Origin: Candidatus Ozemibacter sibiricus
GTDB lineage: Bacteria; Muiribacteriota; Ozemobacteria; Ozemobacterales; Ozemobacteraceae
Length of the DNA stretch: 64,000 bases
Reading direction: 5' to 3'
Assembly: GCA_003327425.1 (NCBI GenBank)
Contig: QOQW01000005.1
Span: 186,001 to 250,000, forward strand
The notes under the pieces are model-generated. The model was given only the letters and a program-made list of their open reading frames with translations, searched no databases and was not told the DNA's origin. This document shows positions 39,651 to 44,750 of the stretch, one piece after another. Position 1 is the stretch's first letter, and each line of letters starts with the position of its first letter. The position numbers and the translations under genes were made by a program.

Positions 39651-41636
39651 TTACAGGCCGAGCACGATCTCCAGGTAGTCTTTGGTGACGATGTCGCCTT
39701 CGGCGCCGCCCAGGAATTTCAGCAGCTCGTAGACCAGCTTCGATTTCTGCTCGGCATCGGCCTTGCTCCAGGTGCGGCTCTTCACCTCGAGGAAGTGGCC
39801 CAGCTCGGGCTTGGTCACCTGATCGATGTTGACGTAGAAGTCGGTTTCCCGGAACCGGACGAGGTAGCGGCGGCGGTCTTTCTGGATCTCGACCTCCGAT
39901 GACGGCTTGAAATACTCGCGGTAGAAGCGCAGGCTGTTGGTGGCAGGAGCGAGGTAGCGGCTGCGCGACAGCAAGGCCTGCTCCTGCGTCGGATAGAGAG
40001 GATCCTGGCCGATCAGGGTCAGGCGGGCGCGGGCGCCGACGATTTCGTCCTTGTCGTTCAACAGTTCGTCTTCCCGGTAGCGCAGGCGTCCCTGGGAGCT
40101 GCCGGCGAACAGGAAGTAGGTATCGAACTGCCGGTAGTGCTTCATGTACTCGATGGCGATCTCGGGGCGGGCGAGGGCGGCTACGACCGGGGCGGGATCG
40201 GCGATCCGCACCTTCATCTGGATCTCGAAGCTCTCTTCTTCCATGGCGCCGCCGATGGCGACGAGCTTCGACAGCACGCTCTTCTCGCGATGGGTCAGGA
40301 AGGTGTCGATGCGGCGGGCGTACTCCATCGCCCGGTTGATCAGCGCCTTCTCGTCGAGGGTCAGCACCTTGCGATCGCGCATCAGCCACTTGCCGTTGAC
40401 CATGGTATCGGTGACATCGCTGGCCTTGGTGGCATAGACGAGCCGGGCATAGGGCGCGTTCTTGTCGCGCAGGAAATAGGGCATGTTGTGGGTGGGGCTG
40501 ACATCGACCAGGATCAGATCGGCCCGTTTCCCGACCACCAGCGAACCGGTCTGCTCTTCGAGGTGGCAGGCGGCGGCGCTGCCGCGAGTCGCCATGTAGA
40601 CCGCGGTGCGAGCCGGCACCGCGGTGGGATCGCCGGACTGCAGTTTGGCCAGGAAGCTGGCCAGGCGCATCTCCTCGAACATGTCGAGATCGTTGTTGGA
40701 GGCGGGGCCGTCGGTGCCGATGCCGACCTTGACGTGCAGATCGTTCATCCGCTTGATGGGCGCCGCGCCCGAGGCCAGCTTGAGGTTGCTGCTGGGGTTG
40801 TGGGCGACGCCCGCCCCCACGTTGTGCAGGGCCCGCATCTCGCCTTCGTCGATGTGCACGCAGTGGGCAGCGATGACCTTGGCGTTGAACAGGTGGTGCT
40901 TCTTCATGTAGGGAATGACCGGCATGCCGGTCTCGGCGCGGACCGCTTCGACCTCCTGAGCCGTTTCGGCGAGATGGATCTGGAGCGGCACATCGAACTC
41001 GACGGCCATTTCCATGCAGGCCTTCAAGATCTCGGGCGTGGTGGTGTAGGGCGCGTGCGGGGCGACGCTGGGCGTGATCAACGGATGCCCCTTCCATTTC
41101 TGGATGAAGGCGCGCGTGTAGGCCAGCGCTTCTTCGTAGAATTTGGCGTCGGGGGTGGGGAACTTCAGCACGGACGAGCCGCAGATGGCACGCAGGCCGG
41201 CCTCGGCCGCCCCTTCCGCCACGGCCTCTTCGTAGTAGAACATGTCGGCGAAGCAGGTGGTGCCGCCCCGGATCATCTCGGCGCAGGCCAGCTGGGTGCC
41301 CAGCTTGACGAACTCGGGCGAGACGAATTCGCGTTCGACCGGCATCATGTAGCCCATCAGCCAGACGTCGAGGCGCAGGTCATCAGCCAGGCCGCGCATC
41401 AAGGTCATCGGCACGTGGGTGTGGGCGTTGATCAACCCTGGCATCAAGATTTTGCCCTGGCAGTCGATCGTCTCGTGGCCCTGCCACTTGCTGCGGACCT
41501 CGCTTTCCGGCCCGACGGCGACGATGCGGTCGCCCTGGACGGCCAGAGCGCCGGGGAAATGCTGTCGGAAAGCATCGTCCATGGTCAGGACGAGCGCATT
41601 GGTGAAGAGGATGTCAGCTTGTTGCATCGGAGGCAT
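39651..41636 (-). CDS. Fusion of an MtaD/SsnA-type amidohydrolase with a C-terminal CYTH domain
   Basis: A 661-residue two-domain protein. Residues 1-445 are a metal-dependent amidohydrolase like S-adenosylhomocysteine/methylthioadenosine deaminases: NAHTHVP (His72, His74), IHLAET (His221), AHCVHID and GTDGPASNNDLDMF (Asp309) give the metal site. Residues 468-661 resemble a CYTH (CyaB/thiamine-triphosphatase) tunnel domain: FEIQMKVRI at 470-478 in place of the usual ExExK, FDTYFLF, GRLRYRE, RYLVRFRE, and VNIDQVTKPELGHFLEVKS with Glu617. The second glutamate of the first motif is Gln473. The frame is continuous across the junction with no sign of a shift. ATG 41636 has AAAGGA just upstream; 41627 is an alternative. 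Confidence 0.85.
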   Translation of the reverse strand: MPPMQQADILFTNALVLTMDDAFRQHFPGALAVQGDRIVAVGPESEVRSKWQGHETIDCQGKILMPGLINAHTHVPMTLMRGLADDLRLDVWLMGYMMPVEREFVSPEFVKLGTQLACAEMIRGGTTCFADMFYYEEAVAEGAAEAGLRAICGSSVLKFPTPDAKFYEEALAYTRAFIQKWKGHPLITPSVAPHAPYTTTPEILKACMEMAVEFDVPLQIHLAETAQEVEAVRAETGMPVIPYMKKHHLFNAKVIAAHCVHIDEGEMRALHNVGAGVAHNPSSNLKLASGAAPIKRMNDLHVKVGIGTDGPASNNDLDMFEEMRLASFLAKLQSGDPTAVPARTAVYMATRGSAAACHLEEQTGSLVVGKRADLILVDVSPTHNMPYFLRDKNAPYARLVYATKASDVTDTMVNGKWLMRDRKVLTLDEKALINRAMEYARRIDTFLTHREKSVLSKLVAIGGAMEEESFEIQMKVRIADPAPVVAALARPEIAIEYMKHYRQFDTYFLFAGSSQGRLRYREDELLNDKDEIVGARARLTLIGQDPLYPTQEQALLSRSRYLAPATNSLRFYREYFKPSSEVEIQKDRRRYLVRFRETDFYVNIDQVTKPELGHFLEVKSRTWSKADAEQKSKLVYELLKFLGGAEGDIVTKDYLEIVLGL

Positions 41637-43787: not shown

Positions 43788-44594
43788 TCAGGGCGCGGTC
43801 GGCAGGTCGGTGGGGGCCGAGGCCGGCAGCAAGGGGAAGATGGCGCTCGGGGTGGCGATCTGCCCCTTGCGGTCGGCTTCGCCGATGCCGATGGCGATCA
43901 CCTGTCCGGCGATGGGCAGGGCATAGGCGGGGTTCTTCCCGTTCTTCGCGAGGAACCGGGCGAGGGCTTCGCCGTCGGCATTGGCCAGCAAGGTCAGATG
44001 CGGTTCGAACTGGGAAAAGACGTTCGGACTGCCGTACTGCTTGATGCATTCGACCTTTTCTGGATTGTCTTTCGCCCACTCGGGGATGAAGCTGGTCGGC
44101 GACCGCAGCGGGGACGCCAGGCCGACGATGGCATCGGAGAGGCTCTGCAGGTTGCGATCGCGTTCGAGATCGAGGAAGAACCAGTTGTCCTTGGTGATCT
44201 GCAAGCGGGTGGTGCGGGCCGGAAAGGCGCGGGTGGTCGCGGCGAAGGCTTTGACGCGGGAGACCAGCTCATCCAGGACAGCCGGCGGGTAGTTGGTCAT
44301 GTACAAAGTGCAGTGGATCTGGAAGCCGAGCTGGGGAAAGGTCGACAGGCCTTCCTGGTCCATCAGGTCCTGGCTGACGGCGCGAACGGCCGCCTCGATC
44401 TCGGGAGACAGGACCGCGAAGATGTTCAGTTTGACGTCGCGCGGGGCATCGGCGGGAGCGGTGGTGCTTGTGGCAGGGGCGGAGGAGGAGGGAAGCTGCG
44501 CCAGACTGCCGGCGGGACCGAGCGCCACGAACGCCAGAACAAGGAGCAAGTCGAAGAAGGGCCCGCGGATCAGGGAGCGGAAGAAGCGTGACAT
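43788..44594 (-). CDS. Exported 2H phosphoesterase superfamily protein
   Basis: A 268-residue protein with an N-terminal signal (FDLLLVLAFVALGPAGSLAQ), a short Ser/Thr/Ala-rich linker, and a 2H (LigT-like) domain with the two HxTx motifs: HCTL in QIHCTLYM and HLTL in FEPHLTLLAN. Such enzymes act on cyclic phosphodiesters of nucleotides or RNA in the cytosol; export makes this one unusual. GGAGGT precedes ATG 44594; a longer frame reaches upstream without support. The substrate is unknown. Confidence 0.83.
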   Translation of the reverse strand: MSRFFRSLIRGPFFDLLLVLAFVALGPAGSLAQLPSSSAPATSTTAPADAPRDVKLNIFAVLSPEIEAAVRAVSQDLMDQEGLSTFPQLGFQIHCTLYMTNYPPAVLDELVSRVKAFAATTRAFPARTTRLQITKDNWFFLDLERDRNLQSLSDAIVGLASPLRSPTSFIPEWAKDNPEKVECIKQYGSPNVFSQFEPHLTLLANADGEALARFLAKNGKNPAYALPIAGQVIAIGIGEADRKGQIATPSAIFPLLPASAPTDLPTAP

Positions 44595-44750
44595 GGGGGT
44601 ACCTCCAGCAGCGATGGATCGTCCGGCCCGGCGGCGCGGCCTCAGGTAGTATGCCACCCTCGCGGCTGCTTGGCAATCGCCAGGCTCCCTGGCATGGCAC
44701 GAAGCCTTGTCGCGGCCCAGATAAGGGAATTCTTGGGAGCGCGGTTTCCG

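Follow-up and report, generated by a model that had tools for sequence, protein, structure and literature searches.

In Candidatus Ozemibacter sibiricus, a single gene joins an amidohydrolase of the deaminase type to a domain with a predicted CYTH/TTM tunnel fold, and the tunnel residues expected around the second catalytic metal are changed in a coordinated way in all 101 distinct fusion sequences compared. Both halves are familiar, a known deaminase family and a known fold; the systematic change of the metal-2 site is what sets the fusion CYTH apart. The gene occupies positions 39651..41636 on the minus strand of the window, the 64,000-nt stretch of contig QOQW01000005.1 analyzed here; all domains and motifs of the gene given below with coordinates lie on this strand, which the original prediction did not state. 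The frame is open and uninterrupted, as had been claimed, and encodes 661 amino acids followed by a stop codon (39651-39653), with homologues of the same length. Residues 4-449 (40290..41627) form the amidohydrolase domain (TRZ/ATZ, MTA/adenosine-type deaminase-like), and residues 470-661 (39654..40229) the CYTH/TTM-fold domain.

The two domains are connected by a conserved segment, residues 450-469 (40230..40289), with the pattern RExSxLSKLxAIGGxxxEES, which ranks among the best conserved parts of the protein. R450, E451 and K457 are invariant in 88 sequences, and the segment is still recognizable in divergent members. AlphaFold confidence drops in this region, and the interdomain geometry of the model (pTM 0.77) is not reliable because the linker is of low confidence.

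The same domain order is found in 13 genomes of Riflebacteria, the window's family, and at about 90 Chloroflexota loci. The original prediction had raised the danger of a sequencing error joining two genes; no stop separates the domains in the 13 Riflebacteria genomes or in the Chloroflexota copies, where 80/80 retained loci read through the joint and are full length unless cut by a contig end. In a phylum sample of Chloroflexota, the fusion is present in 32 of 151 genomes; the frames span 650-824 aa in 31 of the 32 and 347 aa in the remaining one, and one has an internal TGA. Divergent members from large genomes retain the fusion. An artefact, in which mis-assembly or a frameshift joined two genes, is rejected as vanishingly improbable: related genomes carry the uninterrupted fusion, the identical joint recurs in about 100 assemblies, including single-contig chromosomes of several million bases, divergent members also lie on contigs of 6,346,587 and 5,258,541 bases, and nothing was found in its favor. 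Our comparison set holds 108 fusion sequences, or 83 clusters at 90% identity; 101 of the C-terminal halves are distinct, and some genomes are present in two collections.

The N-terminal half matches Amidohydro_1 (Pfam PF01979) over residues 63-418 with an E-value of 4.8e-71, and its metal ligands, noted in the original prediction, are invariant. We take H72 and H74 of the HxH motif (41415..41423) to be metal ligands, as in the family, and E101 in a PxE motif (41334..41336) is presumably the ribose-hydroxyl-binding glutamate, by analogy with TM0936. The HLAE motif (40965..40976) supplies the metal ligand H221 and the expected catalytic acid/base E224, and D309 (40710..40712) is a further metal ligand. 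All of these residues, together with W92, H194 and H258, are invariant in the 108 fusions, and the HxH, His, Asp and catalytic Glu of amidohydrolases and MTA/SAH deaminase-like enzymes are represented by H72, H74, H221, E224, H258 and D309. The nearest structures are 4f0r/4f0s, 3lnp, 4dzh, 4gbd and 4dyk (37-39% identity, TM ~0.95); TM0936 (1p1m) is more distant at 31% identity. With the MTA/SAH/adenosine-type deaminases (4f0r/4f0s, 4dzh, 4gbd/4dyk, 1p1m) the fusion shares the fold (TM 0.92-0.96 by target) and every metal and catalytic position, and with the 4f0r and 4gbd enzymes also a VLxFPTP-like loop; at ~38% identity it differs by its C-terminal CYTH domain, absent from these enzymes. The earlier domain call, an SAH/MTA-deaminase type, is right; the MTA/adenosine-type deaminases 4f0r and 4gbd are closer than TM0936, and the fusion deaminase falls below every NCBIfam equivalog cut-off. 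By homology, the substrate is most likely a 5'-modified adenosine, with 5'-methylthioadenosine, 5'-deoxyadenosine, SAH and adenosine as candidates. All 10 genomes tested carry SAH hydrolase and PNP-family genes. Clearing SAH or MTA thus does not obviously call for the deaminase, and a gap-filling role as a substitute for SAH hydrolase or MTA phosphorylase is not supported.

The CYTH half eludes simple searches. The window copy has no match to Pfam PF01928 and matches the NCBIfam cyaB model TIGR00318 with an E-value of 7.8e-6 and 25.8 bits against a curated cut-off of 57.95; it lies under the curated cut-offs of both models. Relatives behave similarly: 66 of 79 match TIGR00318 (best E 3.5e-9, sub-threshold) and 12 of 79 match PF01928 (best E 3.1e-6). 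A PDB search with the single C-terminal sequence returned only the Pyrococcus TTM 2dc4 at a non-significant E of 0.48, and a profile built from the 13 Riflebacteria sequences recovered no TTM, so that fold comparison was needed. Aligned by hhalign to 21 CyaB-type Chloroflexota proteins, the family reached 81-82% probability over ~155-162 columns, while 16 unrelated neighbor families used as controls gave at most 2.1%. For residues 450-661, AlphaFold predicts (pLDDT 86.6, pTM 0.83) an eight-stranded beta tunnel with a plug helix, as a CYTH/TTM fold demands, and the best Foldseek match of this model in the PDB is SaTTM in its triphosphate complex (7ns9; E 7.6e-9, prob 1.00, TM 0.63/0.73), with CyaB, Pyrococcus TTMs including PH1819, ThTPase, AtTTM1, AtTTM3 and Mediator Med18 among further matches. 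The CYTH/TTM fold is thus established at the level of prediction: the anticipated tunnel emerged in the model, profile evidence exists in the sub-threshold cyaB matches and the hhalign alignment, and every motif named beforehand is in place (EIQMK at 471-475, FDTYF, GRLRYRE, RYLVRFRE, VNIDQV and E617).

Within this predicted tunnel, the substitutions concentrate on the putative metal-2 shell, whereas the metal-1 Glu and most phosphate-binding residues are retained. The hallmark ExExK reads E471-x-Q473-x-K475 (40212..40226; codons checked), position 473 being Gln in 101/101 distinct fusions and Glu in 21/21 CyaB-type relatives. In R558-S-R560 (39957..39965), R560 stands in place of an invariant CyaB-type Glu, again with Arg in all 101 fusions and Glu in all 21 relatives. 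The ExE of strand 8 has become E617-x-K619 (39780..39788; codons checked), invariant in the 101 fusions, in which the metal-1 Glu is kept and the metal-2 Glu, present in 21/21 relatives, is Lys. Both hallmarks of a catalytic TTM phosphatase, ExExK and ExE, are therefore absent from 101/101 distinct sequences. In addition, no fusion keeps the Lys of LTxK; I, V, L, M or T stands in its place. The EIQMK motif had been read as a small deviation; it is the rule in the fusion family and not noise, one element of a metal-2 shell changed coordinately in every distinct copy.

The remaining tunnel is strictly conserved. D505 and Y507 of the DxY motif (40116..40124), which in SaTTM serves water placement (PMC8233210), are invariant in the 101 distinct fusions, and their columns read ExN in the CyaB-type set. 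R519, R521 and D523 (40068..40082) form the RxR + Asp element that binds phosphate in TTMs (PMC8233210, PMC4641920). In the basic strand K586, R588 and R590 (39867..39881), the first two correspond to K110 and R112 in CyaB-type numbering, and R590 is an additional invariant Arg of the fusions. E471, K475, R519, R521, D523, R558, K586, R588, D605, E617 and Y654 are invariant across the 101 fusions; the same set without D523 and with T540 is common to all fusions and the CyaB-type proteins. Compared with CyaB-type CYTH domains and SaTTM, the fusion thus shares the tunnel strand order, the first Glu and the Lys of ExExK, RxR, KxR, the metal-1 Glu and the plug-helix Tyr, and differs by ExQxK and ExK, the patch Glu changed to Arg, the lost LTxK Lys and the extra conserved Arg.

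Published structures give these changes a mechanistic reading. In solved TTMs the first Glu of ExE (E169 in AtTTM3, E160 in YgiF, E135 in SaTTM) holds metal 1 (PMC4641920, PMC8233210). In YgiF the Glu residues of ExExK (E4, E6) and the second one of ExE (E162) hold metal 2, which positions and activates the water for attack, and catalysis suffers when these residues are mutated (PMC4641920); the second ExE Glu is likewise a metal-2 ligand in SaTTM (PMC8233210). AtTTM3 Lys-76 and YgiF Lys-69 help to orient one metal-2 ligand (PMC4641920). The LTxK Lys in the CyaB-type set probably occupies this position. By this mechanism, Q473, R560 and K619 would remove the catalytic metal-2 site. In the SaTTM-Mg crystal, E7, at the position of Gln473, touched metal 1 too (PMC8233210), so metal 1 may also be affected. 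Weak or altered catalysis is possible, since Gln can coordinate a metal and the patch Glu E471 remains.

In the model that we propose, a CYTH/TTM tunnel is a fixed part of a metal-dependent enzyme that deaminates 5'-modified adenosines. The tunnel would bind a triphosphate-like ligand, be it an NTP, tripolyphosphate or other phosphorylated anion, without hydrolyzing it, and ligand binding would tune deaminase activity via the conserved interdomain segment. Taken as a whole, the chances of this model seem to us evenly balanced. Rather than cutting a phosphate-rich molecule, the tunnel probably holds or senses it. The original prediction had left room for an active triphosphate enzyme; the coordinated metal-2 shell change in 101/101 distinct copies makes binding of a triphosphate-like ligand the better supported description, and the invariance of the remaining tunnel residues suggests retained binding rather than decay. 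A role in nucleotide salvage or signaling, also raised originally, is a possible reading. A more specific version, in which a silenced TTM tunnel with a metal-2 site turned basic acts in Chloroflexota as an allosteric receptor for a triphosphate signal, controls deamination of SAM by-products and was passed to Riflebacteria, is one that we put forward tentatively and with some doubt; if true, it would add a new type of metabolic control in bacteria.

The conserved tunnel could also belong to a bifunctional enzyme whose CYTH half is still a catalyst (a tripolyphosphatase, a nucleotide triphosphatase or an enzyme with new chemistry), K619 and R560 replacing metal 2. Across 101 distinct proteins the tunnel residues, among them the metal-1 Glu, RxR and DxY, do not vary, as in an active site; moreover, plant TTM2 has neither ExExK nor ExE, yet pyrophosphatase activity was reported (PMC8233210). 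AtTTM1/2 (SSN cluster 7) resemble the fusion in coupling an enzyme domain to a TTM that keeps RxR and DxY, but their partner is a phosphoribulokinase-type kinase and they are confined to plants and Amoebozoa (PMC8233210). We nevertheless consider a catalytic CYTH half unlikely: the YgiF metal-2 ligands E6 and E162 are Q and K here, another patch Glu is R, and patch-Glu mutations strongly lower activity in AtTTM3 and YgiF (PMC4641920). A class IV adenylate cyclase (CyaB) is rejected, since HFxxxxExExK and ExA are absent, no HF precedes the motif and ExK stands instead; a thiamine triphosphatase is rejected, since W/YxRxR is absent, position 517 being Arg in the window copy and R, I, M or rarely Y among relatives. 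At the other extreme, the fold might serve as an oligomerization or docking module only, with no small ligand. Mediator Med18 is among the Foldseek matches, and other CYTH folds without known catalysis exist, but a scaffold needs none of the more than 12 charged, strand-alternating tunnel residues that are invariant in 101 distinct proteins from two phyla, which makes a purely structural role very unlikely.

The basic character of the altered site raises a further alternative, in which long-chain polyphosphate would run through the tunnel, as in Vtc4p, and link adenosine salvage to phosphate stores. Yeast Vtc4p is described as basic where AtTTM3 has Glu-2, -4, -90 and -171 and as having metal site 1 only (PMC4641920), and the three positions that would correspond are Q, R and K in the fusions, the match to Glu-90 being our own assignment; Vtc4p differs as the polyP polymerase of a membrane complex. 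A polyphosphate-glucose phosphotransferase gene lies near the fusion gene in 22 Chloroflexota loci, but such glycogen and PPGK neighbors, which Riflebacteria lack, may reflect nothing more than synteny. In Anaerolineaceae, for example, glgA, malQ and the phosphotransferase gene form a cluster downstream of the fusion (L026, L029, L031 and others). PPK1 is not a constant companion of the fusion: it is absent from fusion genomes including G005, G006, G011 and G057 and from 6 of the 13 Riflebacteria fusion genomes (7 have it), and among another 29 Chloroflexota genomes with the fusion, 9 lack it. This weakens polyphosphate as an obligatory ligand, and we regard a polyphosphate reader as distinctly unlikely. 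The family is a clean, naturally repeated case in which TTM metal site 2 has been changed and the rest kept, so that the idea of a TTM acting as a sensor can be tested directly.

In a tree of the deaminase half, all Riflebacteria copies form one group within Chloroflexota (SH-aLRT 98-99, from a quick method with long outgroup branches), which suggests a single lateral transfer from Chloroflexota to Riflebacteria. In a sample of Chloroflexota genomes, unfused homologues occur at 40% identity or less and all homologues above 46% identity are fused. In the sister genus g11 the deaminase stands unfused: it ends just before the linker (L014 6104-7519 and L015 5954-7363, minus strand; L016 partial) and lacks the CYTH half. 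Its long branch is nested inside the fused Riflebacteria group, which is best explained by the CYTH half having been lost later. At 7 of the 85 columns that are near-invariant in the fusions both g11 proteins differ, and the catalytic positions are all kept. Coupling of CYTH and deaminase would therefore have been dispensable at least once, and g11 offers a natural control.

None of the open-access papers searched contains both 'amidohydrolase' and 'CYTH domain', and the architecture is apparently undescribed in this literature. A survey from 2021 lists HD hydrolase, exopolyphosphatase, nucleotidyl kinase and CHAD as partners of CYTH (PMC8233210). E. coli YgiF (CYTH-CHAD) is likewise a bacterial two-domain protein, but its CYTH is N-terminal, both metal sites are intact and the partner is CHAD.

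In the window the fusion gene stands alone: its same-strand upstream neighbor encodes an Ig-like-domain protein, and a convergent sugar transferase gene lies on the other side; two genes upstream, 43791-44600 (minus strand) encodes a protein with DUF1045 and 2'-5' RNA ligase-like matches. In Chloroflexota, a CinA N-terminal-type gene (COG1058; MoCF_biosynth + CinA_KH, for example L029:3463-4641:+) precedes the fusion on its strand in 57 of the 94 loci that extend far enough upstream, usually within ~90 bases and sometimes overlapping the fusion by a few bases; the C-terminal ~130 residues of its product have no Pfam match. Characterized COG1058 proteins are ADP-ribose pyrophosphatases (PMC3680494), a suggestive, lineage-limited link to adenosine-nucleotide turnover. 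As a general partner the CinA-N operon is rejected: it occurs in Chloroflexota only, mostly Anaerolineae, and none of the Riflebacteria or Chloroflexia loci examined has it. Directly after the fusion gene, 13 Chloroflexota loci encode a ~410-aa protein without a Pfam match (for example L057:6657-7889:+). A second CYTH match occurs in the window's genome (G000:C19:36542-37078) and in a sister genome (G002:C118:44572-44997), inside frames of 857-958 aa that would represent a further multidomain CYTH protein.
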